Source: a virus
Strand: one strand, 5' to 3'
Virus record (IMG/VR): IMGVR_UViG_3300035670_001228
Coordinates: 1-24,020 of that record
Length of the DNA stretch: 24,020 nt
The translations under genes were made by a program, and so were the position numbers. The stretch's first letter is position 1. Each line of letters opens with the position of its first letter. Positions 5,249 through 14,848 of this stretch are shown here, in pieces. Under the pieces are notes generated by a model. That model was given only the letters and a program-made list of their open reading frames with translations, did no database searches and was not told the origin of the DNA.

Positions 5249-5284
5249 GCGGCGGGCCGCTGACCCCACACGGTGGCCCGCCGC
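5249..5284. other. Hairpin with 10-bp GC stem
   Basis: The arms GCGGCGGGCC (5249-5258) and GGCCCGCCGC (5275-5284) pair perfectly across a 16-base loop. No T-run follows, so it is not a standard terminator. It fills the gap before the HNH gene and may dampen or process the transcript. Confidence 0.6.
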
Positions 5285-5293
5285 GTTCATCTG

Positions 5294-5725
5294 ATGTCAG
5301 AGGAAATTTGGAAACCTGTGCCCGGCTACGAAGGGCGGTATGAAGTAAGCGATCAGGGCCGCGTTCGGTCGCTTGACCGCGAAATCGAACAGTTGTCACG
5401 GCAAGGCAACGCATACAAAAAGATGGTGCGCGGTATTGTTTTAAGACCGGGGCGTATGCCTGCGGGTCACGTGTCCGTCTCGTTGGGGCGTTTTAATTCG
5501 CATTGTGTGCATAAGTTGGTCTTATTGGCGTTTGTTGGTTCTGCGCCAGCAGGGTGCGAATGCCTTCACAACAACGGCAACCCTGCCGACAACAGACTTG
5601 AAAATCTTCGTTGGGGTACGCGTGGCGATAACATTCGGGACGCGGTTAAACATGGTACATGGATGACACCGGCCCGCAAGGCGGCGCTAGATAAGGGCCG
5701 AGCTACGCGGTGGGGGTTTAAGTGA
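5294..5725 (+). CDS. HNH homing endonuclease (NUMOD4-HNH)
   Basis: The protein has an N-terminal NUMOD4 motif (EIWKPVPGYEGRYEVSDQGR, about residues 4-23) and an HNH_3 nuclease core (VHKLVLLAF, LHNNGNPADNRLENLRWGT). It should nick or cut DNA at a specific site and spread its own gene. It is free-standing, with no intron visible. ATG at 5294 is chosen because the NUMOD4 domain begins there, although there is no clear ribosome-binding site, which is common for such genes. The stretch 5390-5680 is richer in A/T and uses more T-ending codons than its neighbours, which fits recent transfer. Its stop shares a base with the polymerase start (TGATG), so it sits precisely between two replication genes. 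Confidence 0.9.
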   Translation: MSEEIWKPVPGYEGRYEVSDQGRVRSLDREIEQLSRQGNAYKKMVRGIVLRPGRMPAGHVSVSLGRFNSHCVHKLVLLAFVGSAPAGCECLHNNGNPADNRLENLRWGTRGDNIRDAVKHGTWMTPARKAALDKGRATRWGFK

Positions 5726-7686
5726 TGGTTTTGTATTGCGATTTCGAAACCCGCTCCCGCTGCGACCTGCCGAGCCGGGGCGTGTACAATTACGCCCAAG
5801 ACCCAAGCACACAAGTGCTCTGCATGTCCTACGCCTTCGACGACGAGGACGTGCAGACCTGGACGCCGGACCAGCCGTTCCCGACGCGCGTTGCCATCTA
5901 CAACGGCCAGATCCGCGCGCATAACGCCGCCTTCGAGCGGCTGATGTTCTGGTACGTCATTTGCCCCGACTTTGGCGTACCGGAGCCTGCCTTGGAGCGG
6001 TTCTACTGCACCGCCGCGCAGGCCCGCGCCAATTGCGCGCCGGGGTCGCTTGAGGACGTGGGCCGCTTCGCCGGGGTCGGCATGAAGAAGGACCACCGGG
6101 GTGCTGCGCTGGTGCGGGCGCTCTCGATCCCGCAGGCAGACGGCACGTTCCGCGAGGACGCCGCGCTCATGCGCGAGATGATCGAGTACTGCGAACAGGA
6201 CGTGCGGGCCATGCGGGCCTTCTCCAAGGCCATGCGCGACCTGACGGACGATGAGCTGCTCGACTACCACGTCAACGAGCGCATCAATGACCGGGGCGTG
6301 CGCCTCGACCGTCCGCTGGCGCAGGCCGCCGTCAGGTACGCCGCCGCCGAGCAGGACGAGATCGAGACACGTTTTCGTGAACTGACCGGGCTGCCGAGTG
6401 TCCGCAGTCCCCGCATGCGCGAGTGGGTGCTGGAGCGCGTCGGGCCGCAGGCCAAGGCCATGATGATGGTCTGGAAGGACGGCGAGCAGAAGGCCAGTAT
6501 CGACAAGACTGTTCGCGCCAACCTCTTGGCAATGGAGAACCCAGATGAAGTCCCACCGGAAGTCGCGGAAGTGGTGCAGTGCGCGGACGATCTCTGGGCA
6601 TCGTCCGTGGCGAAGTTTGAGCGAAGCGCGGCGCTTGCAGATGATCAAGACAGTCGCATCCGGGGTGCGTTTGTATTCGCTGGCGGCTCAGCTACAGGTA
6701 GAGCTTCAAGCTATGGCCTCCAGGTCCACAACTTCCCCCGAAAATGCGCCAAAGACCCTGAACTAGTCCGGCAGGCGCTGGTGCGCGGGCATCAAATCGT
6801 GCCGCAGTTCGGCAAGCGCGTCACGGACGTGCTGAAGTCCATGCTGCGCCCCGCGCTGATCCCTGCCGAGGGCAAGTCCTTCGCCGTGTTCGACTATGCC
6901 CAGATCGAGGCCCGCGTCACGCCATGGCTGTCGATGAAGGGCGAGGAGACGCTCGACGTGTTCCGGCAGGGCCGTGACATCTATGTCGCCGTCGCCGCGA
7001 GGATGTTCAACGTGGACGAAGCGGCGGTTACGGACGAGCAGCGCCAGCTTGGCAAGGTTGCCGTGCTGGCCTGCGGGTTCGGCGGCGGCGTGGGCGCGTT
7101 CAGCGCCATGGGCCGCGTCTATGGTGTCCATATGCCGGAGCATGAGGCCAAGCGCACCGTCGATCTCTGGCGCCGTGCCAACCCGTGGGCCGTGCCGTTC
7201 TGGTCGGACCTGGAGTTCGCTTACATCAGCGCCATACGCTGCCCCGGCGAGGTGTTCACCGCCGGTCGCGTCCAGTACATGATGCAAGGCGATCACCTCT
7301 GGTACGCGCTGCCGTCGGGCCGCGTGTTGTGCTATCCTTACGCCCGCATCGAGGAGGACGGGGTCGGCTATGCGAAGGCGTCGTGGAAACCTGCGGCTGA
7401 CGCGAAGGAGTGGCCGCGTGCGAGACTCTGGCGCGGGCTGGCCTGCGAGAACATCGTGCAAGCCACCGCTAATGACATCCTGCGCCATGCGCTGCGCGGA
7501 TTGGACGCCGCCGGGGTCGAGGTCGTGCTGCACGTTCACGATGAAATTGTAGCCGAGGTTGATACAGAAAAATCAGAAGAATTGGCAGCCGCGATGCGGG
7601 CTGTTATGGTCACCCCTCCCGCTTGGGCCGAGGGCCTGCCTTTGGGCGCCAGCGGCAAGGTGCTGTCTCGTTATGGCAAGGCATGA
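5725..7686 (+). CDS. Family A DNA polymerase with 3'-5' exonuclease
   Basis: This is the phage replicative polymerase, 653 residues. The exonuclease motifs are DFET (Asp6, Glu8), HNAAFE (66-71) and YCEQD (155-159, Asp159). The polymerase motifs are A, FDYAQIEAR with Asp390; B, R440 and K444 in RQLGKVAVLACGFGGG; and C, HDE at 605-607. All expected catalytic residues are present. No 5'-3' exonuclease domain is seen, as expected for phage enzymes of this type. ATG at 5725 is preferred; GTG at 5722 would add one residue. The start overlaps the HNH stop by one base. It works with the primase-helicase encoded further downstream in the same operon. Confidence 0.96.
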   Translation: MVLYCDFETRSRCDLPSRGVYNYAQDPSTQVLCMSYAFDDEDVQTWTPDQPFPTRVAIYNGQIRAHNAAFERLMFWYVICPDFGVPEPALERFYCTAAQARANCAPGSLEDVGRFAGVGMKKDHRGAALVRALSIPQADGTFREDAALMREMIEYCEQDVRAMRAFSKAMRDLTDDELLDYHVNERINDRGVRLDRPLAQAAVRYAAAEQDEIETRFRELTGLPSVRSPRMREWVLERVGPQAKAMMMVWKDGEQKASIDKTVRANLLAMENPDEVPPEVAEVVQCADDLWASSVAKFERSAALADDQDSRIRGAFVFAGGSATGRASSYGLQVHNFPRKCAKDPELVRQALVRGHQIVPQFGKRVTDVLKSMLRPALIPAEGKSFAVFDYAQIEARVTPWLSMKGEETLDVFRQGRDIYVAVAARMFNVDEAAVTDEQRQLGKVAVLACGFGGGVGAFSAMGRVYGVHMPEHEAKRTVDLWRRANPWAVPFWSDLEFAYISAIRCPGEVFTAGRVQYMMQGDHLWYALPSGRVLCYPYARIEEDGVGYAKASWKPAADAKEWPRARLWRGLACENIVQATANDILRHALRGLDAAGVEVVLHVHDEIVAEVDTEKSEELAAAMRAVMVTPPAWAEGLPLGASGKVLSRYGKA

Positions 7687-8073: not shown

Positions 8074-10383
8074 ATGTCGGAATTTCTGGACTACCTGACC
8101 GGCCTCGCCCCGGACGGCGAGACGGCGCTGATCGTGCGCCAGAAGGCCGTGATCTATGACGGCAAGCAGGCGACGCACAAGGACGGCACGCCGAAGTACA
8201 CCTGGCCCGCCTTCCTGCCGGACGCCTCGCGCATCAAGGCGGGCCAGAGCTGGTTCATCAACACCGGCTCGTTCATCATCGACCGTTTCAAGGACGGCAA
8301 GCCGTCGGCGTCCAACGCCAACTGCGAATTCGTCCTGTTCATGATGCTGGACGACATCGGCACCAAGTCGAAGGAGCCGCCGCTGGAGCCGACGTGGGTC
8401 GTTGAGACCTCGCCCGGCAACTACCAGTGGGGCTATGCCTTCAGGGAGCAGCCGACCAAGGGCGAGTACGTCGCGGCCATCACCGCCATCGCGGCGGCGG
8501 GCTACACCGACCCCGGTGCGACCAACGCGGTCCGCAACTGCCGCCTGCCGGGGGCCGTCAACCAGAAGCCGGGCATGGACGGGTTCACGGCGCGGCTGGT
8601 GAAGTTCACGCCCGGTCGCGAGTTCCTGCTATCCGACATCTGCGAGGCTCTCGGCGTCACGCCCGGCGAGGCCGACGGGGCCGGGATGCCAGCGATCAGG
8701 ATCAGGGACACAGGCTCGGACAGCGTTCTGCGCTGGTTGTCGGACGAAGGGCTGGTGCTGTCCAACGTCAACCAGGAGGGTTGGTGCGGCGTTGTCTGTC
8801 CCAACCATGGCGAGCATACGGACGGTCAGATTGAGGGCCGTTACTCGCCCATCAACCGGGCGTATTGCTGTTATCACGCCCATTGCGAGGAGTGGGACAG
8901 CAACCGCTTTCTGGCATGGGTGGCCGAGCAGGGCGGTCCGAAGGTCACGCCGGGGTTCCGCGAGGAGCTGGTGGCCGAGCGCATGGCGATGGTGGCCGAG
9001 ACGATCAAGCCGACCGAGGCGTTCCCTGACGCCGCAGCCGAGGTTGTGGCCGAGGTCGAGCGGAAGGAGATGGGGCGGCTGACCAAGCGGGACTGGTTCA
9101 CCCGCTTTGCCTACGTCGTCGAGGATGACAGTTATTTCGACATGATCGACCGGCAAGAACTGTCGCGGTCATCATTCAACGCGATCTTCCGGCATGTCGA
9201 ATGCAAGTCGATCCACACCGCGCGCCGGGTCGAGGCGTCCGTCTGCTTCGATGAAAACCGCCAAGGTGCCGGGAGCCGGGTGTTGCGCGGCATGACCTAT
9301 GCGGCGGGCGAGAGCGTGCTGGTGGCCAAGAACGGCGACGTGTACGGCAACCGCTGGGTTGATGCCCGGCCCGACCTGTCCGGGCCTGCGGCCAGTGAAA
9401 TTTCACCATGGCTGTCCCATGCCGAGCTGCTGATCCCCGACCCGGAGGAGCGCGAGCACGTCTTTGATGTCATGGCGTTCAAGTTGCAGCGCCCGGAGGT
9501 CAAGATCAACCACGCCGTGTTGCACGGCGGCGACGAAGGTTGCGGCAAGGACACGCTATGGTTCCCGTTCATCTGGTCCGTCTGCGGGCCGGACCTGCGC
9601 AACCGGGGGCTTGTTGACGCGGATGGCATCAATTCGCGCTGGGGCTACGCCCTGGAGAGCGAGATCCTGATCCTCAACGAACTGAAGGAGCCTGAGGCGG
9701 CGCAGCGCCGGGCGCTGTCCAACAAGTTGAAGCCGATCATTGCGGCGCCGCCGGACACCCTGCCCATCGAGCGCAAGGGCCTGCACCCGTACCACATGGT
9801 CAACCGCGTGTTCGTGCTGGCATTCACCAATGACCCCGTGCCGATCTCGCTGCCGACGCAGGACCGGCGCTGGTTCTGTTTGTGGTCGCATGCCCCGCGC
9901 ATGGACAAGGTCGAGGCCAAACGGCTCTGGGACTGGTACAAGCACGGCGGCGGCTTGGTGGCGGTGGCGCGCTGGCTGAAGGACCGCGACGTGTCGGCGT
10001 TCAACCCGGCGGCCATGCCGCCTTGGACCGACTACCGCTCGCGCCTGATCGAGACAGGCCGGTCAATGGCCGAGAGCTTCGTGATCGAGGAAATCCTGAA
10101 GCCGTCGCCGGAATTCGCCGCAGGCGTCATCGCCTCGCCGTTCCACCGGCTCTGCAACATCCTGCAACAGAAGGCGCCGGGCGGCGTCAAGATCCCGCAG
10201 GCGGCGCTGCTGCACGGGCTGAAGGAGGCGGGCTGGGAGGATCTCGGAGCGGTCAAGTCCGCCGAGTACCAGACCAAGAAGAACATGTGGGCGCGGCCCG
10301 ACATGCTGCGGATATACAACAAAAGTGAACTCCGGCGGATGGTCGAGCAGCCGCCGGAGCCGGGATTGAAGCTGGTGAAGTAG
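8074..10383 (+). CDS. Primase-polymerase/helicase fusion (RepB-like primase, D5-type ATPase)
   Basis: This 769-residue protein looks like a two-part replication enzyme. The N-terminal part resembles the RepB/AEP primase group (FMMLDDIGTK with Asp93 and Asp94; TNAVRNCRLPGAVNQKPG). A Cys/His cluster follows (Cys242, His245, Cys266, His268, Cys271), probably a zinc finger. The C-terminal half is a superfamily 3, DUF5906-like ATPase with Walker A GGDEGCGKDT (485-494, Lys492) and Walker B ILILNE (531-536). It would unwind DNA and make primers for the polymerase. The start at 8074 has GAGGAAAAC directly upstream. It is the last gene of the rightward operon and faces the opposing operon that ends at 10385. 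Confidence 0.88.
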   Translation: MSEFLDYLTGLAPDGETALIVRQKAVIYDGKQATHKDGTPKYTWPAFLPDASRIKAGQSWFINTGSFIIDRFKDGKPSASNANCEFVLFMMLDDIGTKSKEPPLEPTWVVETSPGNYQWGYAFREQPTKGEYVAAITAIAAAGYTDPGATNAVRNCRLPGAVNQKPGMDGFTARLVKFTPGREFLLSDICEALGVTPGEADGAGMPAIRIRDTGSDSVLRWLSDEGLVLSNVNQEGWCGVVCPNHGEHTDGQIEGRYSPINRAYCCYHAHCEEWDSNRFLAWVAEQGGPKVTPGFREELVAERMAMVAETIKPTEAFPDAAAEVVAEVERKEMGRLTKRDWFTRFAYVVEDDSYFDMIDRQELSRSSFNAIFRHVECKSIHTARRVEASVCFDENRQGAGSRVLRGMTYAAGESVLVAKNGDVYGNRWVDARPDLSGPAASEISPWLSHAELLIPDPEEREHVFDVMAFKLQRPEVKINHAVLHGGDEGCGKDTLWFPFIWSVCGPDLRNRGLVDADGINSRWGYALESEILILNELKEPEAAQRRALSNKLKPIIAAPPDTLPIERKGLHPYHMVNRVFVLAFTNDPVPISLPTQDRRWFCLWSHAPRMDKVEAKRLWDWYKHGGGLVAVARWLKDRDVSAFNPAAMPPWTDYRSRLIETGRSMAESFVIEEILKPSPEFAAGVIASPFHRLCNILQQKAPGGVKIPQAALLHGLKEAGWEDLGAVKSAEYQTKKNMWARPDMLRIYNKSELRRMVEQPPEPGLKLVK

Positions 10384-10384
10384 G

Positions 10385-10444
10385 CTACAGGTCGAGCCAG
10401 GCGGCGATCAGGGCCGCGAGCACAAGGGCGGCGAGGTAGATCAT
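10385..10444 (-). CDS. Tiny membrane peptide, 19 aa
   Basis: The peptide reads MIYLAALVLAALIAAWLDL, a single hydrophobic helix with an acidic end. Its ATG overlaps the stop of the DnaA-like gene as ATGA, the same coupling used throughout this operon, which is the main reason to call it. It could be a membrane-acting inhibitor or a chance frame. Function unknown. Confidence 0.45.
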   Translation of the reverse strand: MIYLAALVLAALIAAWLDL

Positions 10445-10809
10445 GCTTCGTCGCCCAGTGCTTTTGCGACCGCCGCGCGGTGCGCCTTGTACCAGCCTTT
10501 GAGCACCGCCGCATTGAATGTGCGATAGCTATGGATGGCCGTTGTATGATCGACCCGGCGCAGGGCGCGCGCGATCAGGGGATAGCTGAGATCCAACCGG
10601 CGGCGGCGCAACTCCCACACGGCATGGTGCCGCGCGTAGGCCAGTGCCGAAATCCGGCACCGGCTCAGCAAGTCGTCAACCGTGACGCCATGCGCGTCGG
10701 CAACGGCCTGCACGATTCGCTCCGGCGGAAACCGTTCCGCCTGCAAGGCGACCCATAGCTGATGCTCTGCCCAGACCTTGTCGTCGTCAACGTAATGGTC
10801 GTCGATCAT
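10441..10809 (-). CDS. DnaA domain IV-like DNA-binding protein (copy 1)
   Basis: The 122-residue protein matches the C-terminal DNA-binding domain of the replication initiator DnaA, without the ATPase part. The order is IVQAVADAHGVTVDDLLSR (32-50), YARHHAVWELRRR (58-70) and the signature DHTTAIHSYR (87-96), which corresponds to the DHTTV-H box that reads DnaA boxes. It should bind DnaA-box-like DNA but cannot hydrolyse ATP or oligomerise as DnaA does. It follows copy 2 with an ATGA overlap. It could occupy host or phage origins as a competitor or recruiter, or be a phage transcription regulator; these roles are inferred. Confidence 0.82.
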   Translation of the reverse strand: MIDDHYVDDDKVWAEHQLWVALQAERFPPERIVQAVADAHGVTVDDLLSRCRISALAYARHHAVWELRRRRLDLSYPLIARALRRVDHTTAIHSYRTFNAAVLKGWYKAHRAAVAKALGDEA

Positions 10810-11192
10810 GCGTCGTTTCCAAGGGCCTGCGCGACCGCCTGCCGTTCGGCGGCGTAATACCCACGCTTGACGTACTCACTGAACACCATGACGCTGTTGA
10901 GCGCCGTGGCGTGGTTGTCGCGGTCAAGGGCGGCGGCAATCTGCTGGAGGGTCATATCCAAGCGACGGCGCCGCATTTCCCATGCCGCGTGGTGCCGCGC
11001 GCTGGAGGTCGCCCGATCACGGGCGCGCGACCGCAGGGCGGCGGGCGTCGTGTCATGGGCCGCCGCGACCGCCGCAAGGATATCGTCGGCGGGATAGCGG
11101 CGGGCTTGTTCGGCGGCATGTGCAAGTTGCGCGTTCCACAGGCGTTCCACTTTCCGCTTTACGTCAGTGCTGTTTCGGCGTATGGCTCTCAT
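10806..11192 (-). CDS. DnaA domain IV-like DNA-binding protein (copy 2)
   Basis: This is a 128-residue paralogue of the gene downstream. It shares ARHHA-WE-RRRRLD and the same helix order, but the signature box is altered to DNHATALNS (92-100) in place of DHTTAIHS, and the linker QQIAAALDRD differs. The two probably arose by tandem duplication and then diverged, so they may read different sites. The start has GAGGAAAAC immediately upstream. The basic N-terminus (MRAIRRN) could add DNA contacts. It was recognised by comparison with copy 1; alone it would be a weak DnaA match. Confidence 0.72.
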   Translation of the reverse strand: MRAIRRNSTDVKRKVERLWNAQLAHAAEQARRYPADDILAAVAAAHDTTPAALRSRARDRATSSARHHAAWEMRRRRLDMTLQQIAAALDRDNHATALNSVMVFSEYVKRGYYAAERQAVAQALGNDA

Positions 11193-11524
11193 GTTTTCCT
11201 CCCTGTGACTCGGCCCGGCGTCATTGCCGGGCCTTTTTCTTGCGGCACCAGGTTGCGGCGGCGGGCTTCGGCTGTTGCGGCGGCGAGCGCCGCGCCGTAG
11301 TAGTCGCGCGTATGGTTCAGAAGGGTCTCCACCGCATTGATGAACCGCAACAGTGCGGCGTCCATCAATTCGGCGTTCAGGGCGTCATAGTCCGCGAGGG
11401 CGTCAATGTGCTCTTCCAACCGATCCGCAAGCGCGCGGATCAGTCCGTCGTCGCCGTGCGCGCGGGCGCGGTCGAGCAGGTCGGCAACGGTGAGCTGGCT
11501 CAAGTAAGTGTAGTCATGTGTCAT
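11189..11524 (-). CDS. Helical phage protein, unknown function
   Basis: The protein begins MTHDYTYLSQLTVADLLDRA and is predicted to be largely helical, with acidic and Ala-rich segments. ATG at 11524 is chosen over one at 11542 because AAGGA lies eight bases upstream. It overlaps the preceding gene by 11 bases and the following gene by ATGA. Its last codons run through a GC-rich hairpin (11212-11233), and the C-terminal tail PAMTPGRVTGRKT is basic. No family is recognised. Confidence 0.72.
   Translation of the reverse strand: MTHDYTYLSQLTVADLLDRARAHGDDGLIRALADRLEEHIDALADYDALNAELMDAALLRFINAVETLLNHTRDYYGAALAAATAEARRRNLVPQEKGPAMTPGRVTGRKT
11212..11241 (+). terminator. Rho-independent terminator, plus strand
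   Basis: GGCCCGGC (11212-11219) and GCCGGGCC (11226-11233) form a perfect 8-bp stem with a six-base loop, followed on the plus strand by TTTTTCTT. It would stop rightward transcripts running past the primase gene. It lies inside the end of a leftward gene, where it would instead read as a hairpin without a U-run. Confidence 0.65.
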
Positions 11525-11699
11525 GGTCGAGATCCTTTTCATCTAACAGTTTCAATTCGCGCAGCACGTCCGCCATGCGTGACGGCGGCCATGAGATTTC
11601 GTCGGTGATGGGGTCGCGCTTGACGTGGTCCGCATCCGCCAGGCGTTGCGGATCGGGCACCATGCCGCGCGCGTCATAGCGCGCCTTAGTCGCGGCCAT
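11514..11699 (-). CDS. Small phage protein, 61 aa, unknown function
   Basis: The chosen start, ATG at 11699 (MAATKARYDARGMVPDPQ), overlaps the end of the upstream gene by 14 bases. The frame is open further upstream, but that part reads as a Ser/Pro/Thr-rich shadow of the neighbour. The product is polar and ends in an acidic helix (LRELKLLDEKDLDHD). Its end overlaps the next gene by 11 bases. No family is recognised. Confidence 0.68.
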   Translation of the reverse strand: MAATKARYDARGMVPDPQRLADADHVKRDPITDEISWPPSRMADVLRELKLLDEKDLDHDT

Positions 11700-12018
11700 A
11701 GTCAATGCCCCCGTACAGATTGACAATGCCATCCTGCGCGAGGGCCTCGCGCAACTGGGTGTCAATCCATTCGCGGTCCATGTCGGCGTACAGCACGTCG
11801 AACAAGGGCTCAGTGCGGTAGATTTCGACGGTCTTGCGCTTGCCGGGTTCAGTCCCGGCATTGTCAAACCAGAATGCAGTCACGTCCCAATCAATCGAGC
11901 CGGACGGCCCGTCCGGCAAGCTCCACTCGCATTTCGCTTCGCAGCCGCACTCGAAAAGGCACACGTCGCCTTTCCAAACGGAAATCGTTATGGGGATATA
12001 GCAGTATCGGTCAGACAT
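11686..12018 (-). CDS. Cys-containing phage protein, 110 aa, unknown function
   Basis: ATG at 12018 has GAGGAAAAC right before it. The protein starts MSDRYCYIPITISVWKGD and contains four Cys in the first 30 residues (C6, C19, C24, C26, C30 region), plus aromatic-rich beta-like stretches (WDVTAFWFDNAG). A Cys cluster of this kind could bind metal. It looks like a small beta-sandwich or zinc-ribbon protein, but I do not recognise the family. It follows the clamp-like gene after a hairpin gap. Confidence 0.75.
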   Translation of the reverse strand: MSDRYCYIPITISVWKGDVCLFECGCEAKCEWSLPDGPSGSIDWDVTAFWFDNAGTEPGKRKTVEIYRTEPLFDVLYADMDREWIDTQLREALAQDGIVNLYGGIDYGRD

Positions 12019-12052
12019 GTTTTCCTCATTAGTTGCTTAAGGTTGATAGAAT

Positions 12053-12074
12053 ACGGGCGGCACTGGCCGCCCGT
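12053..12074. other. Intergenic hairpin
   Basis: ACGGGCGGC (12053-12061) and GCCGCCCGT (12066-12074) form a perfect 9-bp stem with a four-base loop between the clamp-like gene and the next gene of the leftward operon. There is no U-run in either direction, so it may be a processing or stabilising element. Confidence 0.6.
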
Positions 12075-12087
12075 CAAGGGTTGTTTG

Positions 12088-12681
12088 TCAGCCCGCCATG
12101 ACGACGTTGCGCGTGAGCACGGCGGTCGCGTCCGGCTGGCGGCGCAATGGCATAAGCACACCAAAACAATCGGCCCGTTCACCGAAGGTCACAAGGGCGG
12201 GGTGACTTGCGGATCGAGGGTGCAGAACGGACTGGCCCAGGGTGGACTTGCCGCACAAAATGTCCGCCATCTTTTCAAAGTCCCCGACGTAACGGTTGTT
12301 GAAATGGACGTGCTCAGGCCCGTCATTGGCGCCGGGCTTGCTCGAGGGCATTTCCTCGCCCGTTGGCACGACGCGGCGCCAGTCCGGGAACGTACCGTCA
12401 ATAGGCGTGTACTGGATCTGGCCGATCCGATTGGCGGCCAAGTCGATCTCGATTTCCTTCACGCGGGCGCCCGCCATCTTGAGGGCCGCCGCGACCGCGT
12501 CATAGGGCACGATCACGTCCACCGCCGGACGGTCGGTGAGGCGCGCGACGAACATGCGATGGCCGTCCGTCGTCACCATATGGCCGGACGTGGCCAAATG
12601 CACGCCGCGCAGATAGTAGCGCGTTGCCTCAGAGCTGGCGCACACAAGGGCGGCCTTGAGCAGGTCAGTAGCAATAAGCAT
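12088..12681 (-). CDS. Shortened beta sliding clamp-like protein
   Basis: The sequence aligns by eye with the bacterial sliding clamp DnaN. RYYLRGVHL (21-29), TDGHRM (38-43), DVIVP (55-59) and DGTFPDWRRVVP (95-106) match the whole of clamp domain II (compare RYYLNG, TDGHRL, GRFPDYRRV-P). FNNRYVGDFEKM (127-138), PALV (161-164) and VLMPLR (175-180) match the second half of domain III, including the VMPMRL end. Domain I and the first half of domain III are missing, so it has 197 residues rather than about 370. It may still form a ring by higher oligomerisation, or bind clamp partners without encircling DNA. AGGAGA lies upstream of the ATG. It could serve the phage polymerase or interfere with the host clamp. 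Confidence 0.78.
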   Translation of the reverse strand: MLIATDLLKAALVCASSEATRYYLRGVHLATSGHMVTTDGHRMFVARLTDRPAVDVIVPYDAVAAALKMAGARVKEIEIDLAANRIGQIQYTPIDGTFPDWRRVVPTGEEMPSSKPGANDGPEHVHFNNRYVGDFEKMADILCGKSTLGQSVLHPRSASHPALVTFGERADCFGVLMPLRRQPDATAVLTRNVVMAG

Positions 12682-12701
12682 AGGTCAGTCTCCTGTTGAG
12701 T

Positions 12702-12726
12702 TTAGGTTAGGTTAGGTTAGGTTAGG
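12702..12726. repeat. Five tandem TTAGG units
   Basis: TTAGG is repeated five times without a break (CCTAA in the leftward transcript). It lies in the leader of the clamp-like gene, ending about 20 bases before its start codon. The period is five bases. It could be a protein-binding site or a slippage-prone leader. Confidence 0.9.
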
Positions 12727-12735
12727 GTCTAGTGA

Positions 12736-12757
12736 GCCGCCGGGCGTGACCGGCGGC
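12736..12757. other. Intergenic hairpin
   Basis: GCCGCCGG (12736-12743) and CCGGCGGC (12750-12757) pair perfectly with a six-base loop, between the 32-residue membrane peptide gene and the clamp-like gene. No U-run follows on the minus strand. Confidence 0.6.
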
Positions 12758-12767
12758 CTGCTAGGCA

Positions 12768-12866
12768 CTAAAGCAGCATGCCCACATAGGCGAAGGCATA
12801 GGCGGCGAACACAAGCGCCGCGACCTTTGCGAGCTGGACGGCAAGGTAAATGGTGTCGTTTAGCAT
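12768..12866 (-). CDS. Small membrane peptide, 32 aa
   Basis: The frame begins MLNDTIYLAVQLAKVAAL and continues as a hydrophobic helix rich in Ala, Val, Phe and Tyr, ending in YVGMLL. One membrane span is likely. GAGGAAAAC lies a few bases upstream of the ATG, the same site used by other genes of the operon, and the spacing between neighbours leaves room for exactly this gene. Function unknown; small phage membrane peptides often act on host membrane proteins. Confidence 0.62.
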   Translation of the reverse strand: MLNDTIYLAVQLAKVAALVFAAYAFAYVGMLL

Positions 12867-12880
12867 GTCGTTTTCCTCTT

Positions 12881-12912
12881 GTTAGACCGTCGTTAGACCG
12901 TCGTTAGACCGT
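12881..12912. repeat. Three copies of an 11-bp repeat
   Basis: GTTAGACCGTC occurs at 12881, 12892 and 12903, with the last copy missing its final C. The 11-base period is about one helical turn, so a protein would meet the same face of the DNA three times. It forms the leader of the 32-residue peptide gene and touches the stop of the gene upstream. Confidence 0.88.
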
Positions 12913-13076
12913 TAGTTGACGCGGACGCCATATCGCGTGGCGCCGTCCTTATTGCGGTACGCCTCAACACGCGGGCGCTCGCCAGGCATGACGTCGCCCG
13001 CGGCATATGCAGTCTCGAGCACCAATTCAGCGCTTGCGCGCGTCTTGTAGCCGTACGCGTACCAATAGCTTTCCAT
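12912..13076 (-). CDS. Small phage protein, 54 aa, unknown function
   Basis: The product begins MESYWYAYGYKTRASAELV and ends in ATRYGVRVN. ATG at 13076 is preferred because GGAGG lies about seven bases upstream; an ATG at 13082 is too close to that site. It is a compact, aromatic-rich protein with a likely helix-strand order. No family is recognised. It sits between two other small genes of the leftward operon. Confidence 0.65.
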   Translation of the reverse strand: MESYWYAYGYKTRASAELVLETAYAAGDVMPGERPRVEAYRNKDGATRYGVRVN

Positions 13077-13094
13077 TGTCATCCCTCCACAAAA

Positions 13095-13286
13095 TCAGAA
13101 AGCGATTGCGCGCCAGTGAAACCGGCACATAGGCGCCGTCGCAGTGCCCCAGTCCAGCGCATCAAACATACGTTCGACGGCGCGCTCAATCTGAAACTCG
13201 GTCATCTTTCCTTCGGTATACTGCGCGCGCGCCCAGGTATCGATTGCACGCGCGCGTGCTTCGTATTGCTCGTATGTCATTGCCAT
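13095..13286 (-). CDS. Small helical phage protein, 63 aa, first gene of the leftward operon
   Basis: ATG at 13286 follows GGAGGAAAACCA closely; the frame is open upstream but lacks a site there. The sequence (MAMTYEQYEARARAIDTWAR, then TEFQIERAVERMFDALDWG) should form two or three helices and ends in a short hydrophobic tail. It is the promoter-proximal gene of the cluster that includes the clamp-like and DnaA-like genes, so it could be a regulator, but no DNA-binding motif is clear. Confidence 0.7.
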   Translation of the reverse strand: MAMTYEQYEARARAIDTWARAQYTEGKMTEFQIERAVERMFDALDWGTATAPMCRFHWRAIAF

Positions 13287-13353: not shown

Positions 13354-13382
13354 TTGCAAAGGCAAACGGCGCACACTATAGT
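13354..13382 (+). promoter_or_regulatory. Sigma-70-like promoter
   Basis: TTGCAA (13354-13359) and TATAGT (13377-13382) are separated by 17 bases, about 38 bases before the Cys-rich protein gene. The spacing and both boxes are close to consensus. The leftward operon must start in the same gap; a weak minus-strand candidate (TTTACA near 13340) is visible. Confidence 0.7.
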
Positions 13383-13419
13383 TATTCACATTAGACACTA
13401 AACGAAAGGAAACGACACT

Positions 13420-14196
13420 ATGATTAAGACGGCTCAAGATATGCTCAAGGCCTTGAAGCGCGACAAGTATTGTGGCGTGATACTATACCAAGGCCCATCA
13501 CTGATAGACGGCGCGCCGATTGTGGTCATCGCTAACAGGATTGTGAGCGACAGCGATAACGTCAAAACGGGCGCAATGGTGCAAACGTTCATCCTGCGTC
13601 AGGATATGCGCCCGCTTGACGCCGCACGTTTGGGATACGACTACAGCATCTGTGGCCATTGCCCACATAGGCCGTCCAATGACGGCTCATGTTATGTGAA
13701 CATCGGCCGTTCGGTCGAATCCGTTTACGGCGCATACAAGCGCGGGCGTTATGCGCGCCCGCATATCGATTATGACGTGGCGCTATTGCCGGACTTGTTC
13801 GCCGATAGCGTGTTCCGTCTCGGATCCTATGGCGACCCGGCGGCCGCGCCGTTCCGCGTCTGGCAGCATGCCACGGCGCGCGTGAAGGCGCGCAACGGGT
13901 ACACCCACCAGTGGCGAGCTTTCCCGCAATTCGCAAGCTTGTGCGTGGCCAGTGTCGATAGCGAAGCACAAGCCACCGAAGCGCGCGCTGCAGGTTGGCG
14001 GACGTTCCGTGTGCGCGCGGCCGTGACGGCGCCCGTCATGGCAGGCGAAATTGCATGTCCTGCTAGTGAAGAAGCTGGTAAAAAGACGACGTGTTCGGAT
14101 TGCCGCGCTTGTGGTGGAACATCGGCGCGCGCGCGCGTCTCAATCGTCATTGCCGCGCATGGAACGACGAAGGCAAGGTTCGCTGCAGCCGCTTGA
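13420..14196 (+). CDS. Cys-rich phage protein, possible metal binder
   Basis: This 258-residue protein has two cysteine groups: CGHCPHR with Cys78, Cys81 and Cys91, and a C-terminal CPAS-EAGKKTTCSDCRACGG with Cys213, 225, 228 and 231. Such groups usually bind zinc or an iron-sulfur cluster. The central part (NIGRSVESVYGAYKRGRY; RNGYTHQWR) is rich in Arg and aromatic residues. AAAGGAAACGACACT precedes the ATG. I recall phage hypothetical proteins with the same CPAS and C-C-C ending, but no function. It is a single-gene unit between a strong promoter and a strong terminator, which suggests early, high-level expression. Confidence 0.82.
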   Translation: MIKTAQDMLKALKRDKYCGVILYQGPSLIDGAPIVVIANRIVSDSDNVKTGAMVQTFILRQDMRPLDAARLGYDYSICGHCPHRPSNDGSCYVNIGRSVESVYGAYKRGRYARPHIDYDVALLPDLFADSVFRLGSYGDPAAAPFRVWQHATARVKARNGYTHQWRAFPQFASLCVASVDSEAQATEARAAGWRTFRVRAAVTAPVMAGEIACPASEEAGKKTTCSDCRACGGTSARARVSIVIAAHGTTKARFAAAA

Positions 14197-14215
14197 CGGC
14201 GCGGCAATAGATGTG

Positions 14216-14233
14216 CTACGGCTTAAGCCGTAG
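14216..14233. other. 18-bp perfect palindrome
   Basis: CTACGGCTTAAGCCGTAG is fully self-complementary with no spacer. It lies between the Cys-rich gene and its terminator. It could be an operator for a dimeric protein or an upstream part of the termination structure. Confidence 0.75.
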
Positions 14234-14240
14234 TGAGCAA

Positions 14241-14267
14241 ACGGGCGCCAAACGGCGCCCGTTTTTT
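14241..14267 (+). terminator. Strong rho-independent terminator
   Basis: ACGGGCGCC (14241-14249), loop AAAC and GGCGCCCGT (14254-14262) form a perfect 9-bp stem, followed by a run of six T. It ends the transcript of the Cys-rich gene. Confidence 0.9.
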
Positions 14268-14575
14268 GTTGGGCAGTGGTTGGGGCATTGCTGGGGTAGC
14301 GTTTGGGGCATCGGAAAGCTGCTCTAAAAGCCTTATGCCATGCTATGATGGGTATTATGGGTAATCTCTCTAACTATAAGACTGTTAAGTTGTATATTAG
14401 CAAATGCTAATATAATAGTGTACTGTAAATCTAACGATTAACGAGCCTAGGTCTTTCGGATGGGCATTGCCCATTTTGCCCATCTTGCCCATCGCCCCTC
14501 CGACGCCATTGCGGCGCTTGCAATCCCTATCGCATAACGCTATATGCTATCTATTGCTTTTTACGGAGAGAGCTA
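14268..14575. other. AT-rich non-coding island with palindrome and repeats
   Basis: No gene is seen here. Between about 14340 and 14450 the sequence is far richer in A/T than the rest of the window. It contains a 22-bp inverted repeat (TATATTAGCA, two bases, TGCTAATATA; 14393-14414) that overlaps a perfect -10 box TATAAT at 14411-14416. GGGGCAT motifs occur near 14280-14310, and ATGGGTA motifs near 14350-14370. The combination suits a replication origin, an operator region or both. Confidence 0.65.
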
Positions 14576-14608
14576 ATGCAGAAACTGCCCATATTGCCCA
14601 TCGCCCAT
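14460..14608. repeat. TTGCCCAT repeat family
   Basis: TTGCCCAT occurs at 14467, 14476 and 14485 with a nine-base period, and again as CTGCCCAT (14585), TTGCCCAT (14594) and CGCCCAT (14602) inside the first codons of the next gene. An inverted ATGGGCA (14460-14466) makes a perfect palindrome with the first copy. The two clusters look like a local duplication. Confidence 0.8.
14518..14546 (+). promoter_or_regulatory. Candidate promoter for the 90-residue gene
   Basis: TTGCAA (14518-14523), 17 bases, then TATATG (14541-14546), about 30 bases before the ATG. The -35 box and spacing are the same as in the promoter at 13354. Confidence 0.55.
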
Positions 14609-14848
14609 GTTGTGGACCAGGACGCAATTCGCGCTTGGGCCGTCGACGCAATCACGCAAAAGAAAATTACGCGGCGTCAATTTTCCGCCGTCACCTTGCT
14701 GGCAGGGCGGCACGTTCCCTGTTCCGTCGAATTGCGTCAACGCTCGCCAAAGAGCGTCCTATATCTTTGGATCGATGGAACGCTAGAGTATCGTATCGGC
14801 CAACGTGCTGAGATGTATGGCGGCCATCCGCAATCCATCACGCTCTAG
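14576..14848 (+). CDS. Small phage protein, 90 aa, unknown function
   Basis: ATG at 14576 follows GGAGAGAG. The first residues, MQKLPILPIAHV, are encoded by the GCCCAT repeats that also occur just upstream. The rest (QDAIRAWAVDAITQKKITRRQFSA pattern, then a beta-like LYLWIDGTLEYRIG) looks like a small helix-plus-strand protein and is fairly basic. It might bind DNA, given its place beside the repeat-rich island, but no helix-turn-helix can be claimed with confidence. It is the last gene before the non-coding stretch upstream of the terminase genes. Confidence 0.65.
   Translation: MQKLPILPIAHVVDQDAIRAWAVDAITQKKITRRQFSAVTLLAGRHVPCSVELRQRSPKSVLYLWIDGTLEYRIGQRAEMYGGHPQSITL

Follow-up and report, generated by a model that had tools for sequence, protein, structure and literature searches.

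The 24,020-nucleotide stretch of viral DNA analysed here (IMG/VR virus record IMGVR_UViG_3300035670_001228, positions 1 to 24,020; hereafter the window) carries a leftward operon in which two tandem genes encode stand-alone versions of domain IV, the DNA-binding domain of the bacterial initiator DnaA (Pfam Bac_DnaA_C, abbreviated below to DnaA_C). Judging from sequence comparisons, we consider it on balance probable that these are phage-encoded origin-recognition proteins serving the phage's own box-rich origin, with a VapE-like helicase as the motor. The genes on which this proposal turns are the following.

10441 to 10809, minus strand: DnaA domain IV-like protein 1, 122 amino acids (Pfam, AlphaFold, Foldseek, contact residues)
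10806 to 11192, minus strand: DnaA domain IV-like protein 2, 128 amino acids (Pfam, identity, tree, contact residues)
8074 to 10383, plus strand: VapE-like primase-helicase (RepB_primase and DUF5906); in the group, adjacent and convergent to the DnaA-like genes
5722 to 7686, plus strand: family A DNA polymerase (PolA)

That both tandem open reading frames (ORFs) are stand-alone DnaA domain IV proteins is confirmed. Against the curated Bac_DnaA_C cut-off of 31.5 bits, protein 1 scores 52.8 bits (E 4e-14) and protein 2 scores 37.2 bits (E 3e-9). The AlphaFold (AF2) model of protein 1 has a predicted local distance difference test score (pLDDT) of 93.6, and its top Foldseek matches in the PDB (3pvp, 1l8q, 8btg and 1j1v, probability 1.0) are exclusively DnaA DNA-binding domains, led by that of M. 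tuberculosis bound to a DnaA box; DnaA entries also rank first when the family profile is compared with the PDB by sequence. No AAA+ domain was found in either ORF and neither domain I nor domain III of DnaA is present, while the NCBIfam full-length DnaA model gives 45.9 and 28.7 bits for proteins 1 and 2 versus a cut-off of 343.9. A preliminary description of this DNA had proposed that the two proteins match the DnaA DNA-binding domain alone, and in this it was right.

The positions R399, R407, D433, H434, T435 and T436, which we take from the E. coli DnaA-DNA structure to be the base and phosphate contacts, are retained, or altered conservatively, in most of the family. In the family alignment the equivalents of R407, H434 and T436 are found in 26/26 members, that of R399 in 25/26 and that of D433 in 23/26. 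Protein 1 has retained all of these residues, and protein 2 carries the changes D433N and T435A. Gln408 is replaced by histidine in 26/26 members, which, with the other contacts kept, fits recognition of a related but altered box.

What would such proteins bind? Past the end of a rightward gene at 14196, and ahead of the late genes, the interval 14280-14609 holds 12 DnaA-box-like 9-mers (among them TTGCCCATC and TTACCCATA), distributed around an AT-rich stretch of 100 bp. The region is composed as follows.

14239 to 14264, plus strand: intrinsic terminator, which closes the rightward gene 13420-14196 and bounds the origin-like region
14280 to 14311, minus strand: three box-like 9-mers, ATGCCCCAA, CTACCCCAG and ATGCCCCAA, aligned in relatives
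14341 to 14440, no strand: candidate unwinding element, the highest-AT 100 bp of the window (71%; the record has 37% A+T)
14347 to 14364, minus strand: abutting inverted 9-mer pair TTACCCATA / ATACCCATC, present in 30/31 loci, a conservation that is partly due to selection, the pair being our pattern-chosen anchor
14459 to 14493, plus strand: three abutting 9-mers, TTGCCCATT-TTGCCCATC-TTGCCCATC, and one inverted copy
14585 to 14609, plus strand: three more 9-mers, CTGCCCATA, TTGCCCATC and TCGCCCATG

The array also includes three copies of the form xTRCCCCAx, and TTACCCATA agrees with the E. coli box TTATCCACA at 7/9 bases. Canonical DnaA boxes were rejected as the unit of the array: the window has no TTATCCACA, and its two copies of the looser TTWTNCACA are unclustered, so that the repeated element is a related 9-mer. 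Clustering exceeds chance by a wide margin, with 11 core matches inside one 500-bp stretch of the window versus at most 3 in 40 shuffles, and 5-11 core matches were counted in those pieces from relatives that include the region. The cluster lies at the AT maximum of its contig, or is tied with it, in 13/14 records; these AT and cluster tests are independent of the anchor pair. Across 30 aligned loci, columns at the boxes rank with the best conserved, and the flanks are variable. The region thus shows the clustered boxes beside an AT-rich element that characterise a DnaA-box origin, its boxes being DnaA-box-like and not canonical. The interval 14340-14608 had been named in the preliminary description as a possible target, and it did turn out to be conserved, box-rich, AT-rich and origin-like; this lends support to one of the alternatives raised there, that the phage runs its own origin, as far as the features of the region suggest origin activity.

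In the mechanism that we propose, the DnaA domain IV proteins would bind the 9-mers at about 14280-14609, beside the AT-rich unwinding element and, without an AAA+ domain of their own, would either mark the origin or open it. The motor would be the VapE-like primase-helicase encoded convergently, and PolA would copy the DNA, so that the whole would amount to a split initiator, made up of a host-type recognition domain and a phage motor.

The distribution of the genes among relatives is consistent with such a partnership. A scan based on the clamp, a shortened sliding-clamp gene of the same operon described below, gave 32 viral loci, and in 26/32 of these DnaA_C lies on the same strand a short distance downstream of the clamp; the remaining six loci break off at a contig end shortly beyond the clamp, and wherever enough sequence follows, the linkage is without exception (26/26). 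A scan based on DnaA_C revealed about ten group members without a clamp, with the DNA of its would-be site present. These loci (L076, L081-L085, L087, L089, L093, L107 and others) keep the box cluster, DnaA_C, VapE and P110, a conserved protein of the operon, and no clamp was found in them even by a lenient search; L090 is interrupted by contig ends. Five clamp-bearing phages outside the group (BcepC6B, Bcep781, Acinetobacter 4316, EP23 and K1M) have neither DnaA_C nor the box cluster, and placing the clamp on the DnaA_C tree requires that it was gained or lost several times. Co-occurrence of the two genes, which the preliminary description had offered as a check, therefore holds for the clamp loci with enough downstream sequence and fails for the clamp-less members and the five outsiders. 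DnaA_C thus belongs with the replication genes, while the clamp comes and goes: the fixed set of this phage group is DnaA domain IV, P110, the VapE-like primase-helicase and PolA, with the clamp optional. In two unrelated phages a DnaA_C gene likewise sits beside or near a replication gene. Two contig scans, with the DnaA_C sub-family and with P110, detected no relatives in bacterial genomes, and we found no description of the phage arrangement in the open-licence literature.

The tandem pair itself is confined to this record and one 100% identical contig, every other relative examined having one copy. We read the two proteins as different sub-types that have met in one virus, and not as a recent duplication, since they share only 44% identity and have different nearest relatives in the tree: the single copies of loci L003 and L004 (about 74%) for protein 1, and the L008 copy (60%), with L076, L009 and L037 close by, for protein 2. 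Two initiators with slightly different residues could, in principle, read different boxes of the array.

Several observations weigh against the proteins being origin-recognition factors for this array. Cumulative GC skew turns at the array region in only 2/14 records, and GC skew was for this reason rejected as proof of an origin. The box array is absent from MW202483, the nearest outsider with both DnaA_C and VapE, and likewise from other DnaA_C-bearing outsiders; the link between boxes and DnaA_C is known within one phage lineage, where common descent could explain it. The box variants have no obvious match to the DnaA_C sub-type, and the placement of both window copies in the tree is poorly resolved. 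Finally, the array lies upstream of the late genes, in the place expected for an activator site.

This last point leads to the main rival explanation, which we regard as unlikely, namely that the DnaA domain IV proteins are transcription activators or repressors acting on the box array, turning on the late terminase-side genes or regulating early promoters, much as GafA and GafY/HdaB do in gene transfer agents. The N-terminal domain of GafA resembles the DnaA DNA-binding domain and GafA is a direct activator of gene transfer agent (GTA) transcription (PMC6363796), and, together with IHF, Caulobacter GafY (= HdaB) works at GTA promoters, where it makes contact with RpoD (PMC11150451; PMC9632790). 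The position of the array between early and late genes would suit such a role, as would a second, host-type kind of box found at the early promoter:

13354 to 13390, plus strand: promoter-like site TTGCAA-17-TATAGT, followed by the host-type DnaA box TTATTCACA (13382-13390)

The canonical DnaA box TTATNCACA abuts the -10 element of the early promoter in five genomes (the window, L037, L004, L028 and L033), and in the array-to-clamp stretch of the loci TTWTNCACA occurs 6 times (5 of them at the -10 position) versus 1.7 expected. However, a consensus sigma-70 promoter was sought at the array boxes without success, the boxes stand on both sides of the AT maximum, which is an origin-type arrangement, and none of the operon proteins tested contains a sigma-like (GafZ) domain. 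Because the host-type box also abuts the early-promoter -10, the origin and transcription readings are compatible and not exclusive.

The surroundings of the array have some features of their own. A hairpin equivalent to the terminator is found at that place in most aligned relatives. It is adjoined by a palindrome, TACGGCTTAAGCCGTA, at 14209-14228, and most relatives have a palindrome there, of varying sequence. The gene 13420-14196 stands alone and matches just positions 276-521 of the 529-position profile phrog_2554. No RNA families or tRNA were found in the window.

What is the role of the clamp fragment then?

12088 to 12681, minus strand: shortened beta-clamp, phrog_3007 member (Pfam, phrog profile, hhalign)

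The preliminary description had reported a shortened sliding clamp in the leftward operon, and both Pfam and hhalign bear this out. The ORF matches Pfam DNA_pol3_beta_2 above the cut-off (E 3e-7), as do 29/29 aligned members of the family, and hhalign places it on residues 138-252 of E. coli beta with 37% identity; the C-terminal part gives weak matches to the end of domain III. Its composition as domain II and roughly half of domain III, without domain I, is confirmed at the level of these alignments, and with only ~1.5 of 3 clamp domains matched, the three-domain I-II-III arrangement is not present. The peptide-binding pocket (L155, T172, G174, H175, R176, P242, V247 and the C-terminal MPMR) is kept in 29/29 members at each position apart from V247 (28/29). 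The AF2 model is poor (pLDDT 55.4) and its Foldseek matches carry little weight, those shown being beta clamps only.

The window's clamp is a full-length member of the phrog_3007 profile (residues 2-182 align to positions 5-188 of 190, E 1.8e-33) and differs from it in the label, since phrog_3007 and RefSeq records such as NC_005887 and NC_004333 are named 'RusA-like Holliday junction resolvase'. This label is apparently wrong and the misnaming likely widespread: the phrog_3007 members examined are by sequence beta-clamp fragments, and for Bcep781 gp15 the depositor's note reads 'DNA Pol III b subunit fragment', the Rus-annotated resolvase of that phage being gp22.

A function of the fragment as processivity factor for the phage PolA is possible, if doubtful. 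In BcepC6B and Acinetobacter phage 4316, whose replication genes form a similar set, the clamp gene is next or close to PolA. However, no clamp-binding motif was found in 25 PolA proteins scanned, the fragment covers ~1.5 of 3 domains, and sister phages whose PolA is of the same family get by with no clamp. Because no such motif was found in PolA and the fragment is too short for a standard ring, we consider a role in docking clamp-binding partners at least as likely, and for this optional accessory more probable than one in origin recognition. Some members, clamp-less ones among them, have a weak QAALL in VapE, and QAALKL matches within the clamp itself are uninformative.

An extended form of our proposal, which we hold to be quite unlikely, adds two further components to the split initiator:

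10385 to 10444, minus strand: hydrophobic peptide of 19 residues, MIYLAALVLAALIAAWLDL; its start codon and the stop codon of DnaA-like protein 1 overlap

This peptide, produced by coupled translation, would anchor or tune the initiator at the membrane, and the pocket-only clamp fragment would, in some lineages, draw in host clamp-binding proteins. In 20 loci the peptide gene has a similar stop-codon overlap with the DnaA domain IV gene and every copy ends in AAWLDL, with a ratio of non-synonymous to synonymous polymorphism (pN/pS) of 0.45.

The preliminary description had raised joint action of the clamp and DnaA parts through regulatory inactivation of DnaA (RIDA), an idea we rejected as the leading one since the clamp is optional and separable; screening also turned up no Hda-like AAA+ gene among those operon proteins that were tested. 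We consider very unlikely its wider form, host takeover, in which the domain IV proteins would sit on host DnaA boxes or interfere with Hda while the clamp fragment competes in RIDA, with blocked or de-regulated host initiation as the outcome. In its favour, the pocket of the clamp is conserved, the title of a work by Frandi and Collier has the DnaA-related HdaB target RIDA (cited in PMC8034640), prophage YfdR binds DnaA and inhibits initiation with yfdQST, and lambda P also binds DnaA (PMC4776307). Against it, the clamp is optional in the group and occurs elsewhere without DnaA_C, the boxes carried by the phage depart from the canonical box, and the proteins have no domain I or III for contacting DnaA or Hda partners.

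The remaining genes of the operon are listed below; all operon genes are on the minus strand and several overlap at their ends, as in an operon.

11189 to 11542, minus strand: 117-amino-acid protein (phmmer matches to two adjacent ORFs of relatives)
11514 to 11699, minus strand: conserved small protein, 61 amino acids (YDARG...ISWPPSRM...), at an equivalent position in L076, L078, L093 and L107
11686 to 12018, minus strand: P110, conserved protein and operon marker (20-member alignment), next to DnaA_C with or without the clamp
12768 to 12866, minus strand: 32-residue membrane peptide MLNDTIYLAVQLAKVAAL... (from translation)
13095 to 13286, minus strand: P93, read from an internal ATG, first gene of the leftward operon (phmmer homologues in relatives)

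An internal deletion has apparently fused two small proteins into the 117-amino-acid ORF; relatives encode them separately. The second membrane micropeptide (12768-12866, LQLAKVAALL-type) is conserved in the operon, relatives having comparable peptides close to P110 or to the clamp, and in some of them an unrelated peptide takes its place. Short tandem repeats span 12699-12727, upstream of the clamp gene and of GGTTA type, and 12881-12913, with GTTAGACCGTC repeated three times. Directly upstream of PolA, a NUMOD4-HNH endonuclease gene (5273-5725) probably encodes a homing endonuclease.

If our proposal of a split initiator is correct, the recognition domain of DnaA would be separable from its ATPase and would serve a viral replicon with its own boxes, representing a natural split of a central initiator, and a precise candidate origin would be at hand for a whole group of uncultured phages.

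The closest known system is DnaA domain IV at bacterial oriC, with which the phage system shares the fold, the contact residues and 9-mer boxes beside an AT-rich stretch. In contrast to DnaA, the phage proteins have neither AAA+ domain nor domain I, carry histidine in place of Gln408 throughout and have a one-residue insertion in the ARHHAxWExR segment, and in contrast to oriC the box core is CCCAT/CCCCA and boxes abut without a spacer. GafY/HdaB of Caulobacter and GafA of Rhodobacter, likened here by their descriptions, are analogous as small DnaA domain IV-like proteins or domains without AAA+ in phage-like elements, but they act on transcription with a sigma-like partner, whereas the phage genes sit with a primase-helicase and a polymerase. 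The annotations of MW202483, MW202613 and Rhizobium phage RHph_N28_2 include stand-alone phage DnaA_C proteins, which in some of these genomes are encoded next to replication genes; they belong to different sub-families and have no matching box array. The REP-associated transposases (TIRYT), for which GGGG-containing flanking repeats are described (PMC6006769), carry a C-terminal Bac_DnaA_C and so also re-use the domain away from DnaA, although there it is fused to a Y1 transposase and does not serve phage replication.

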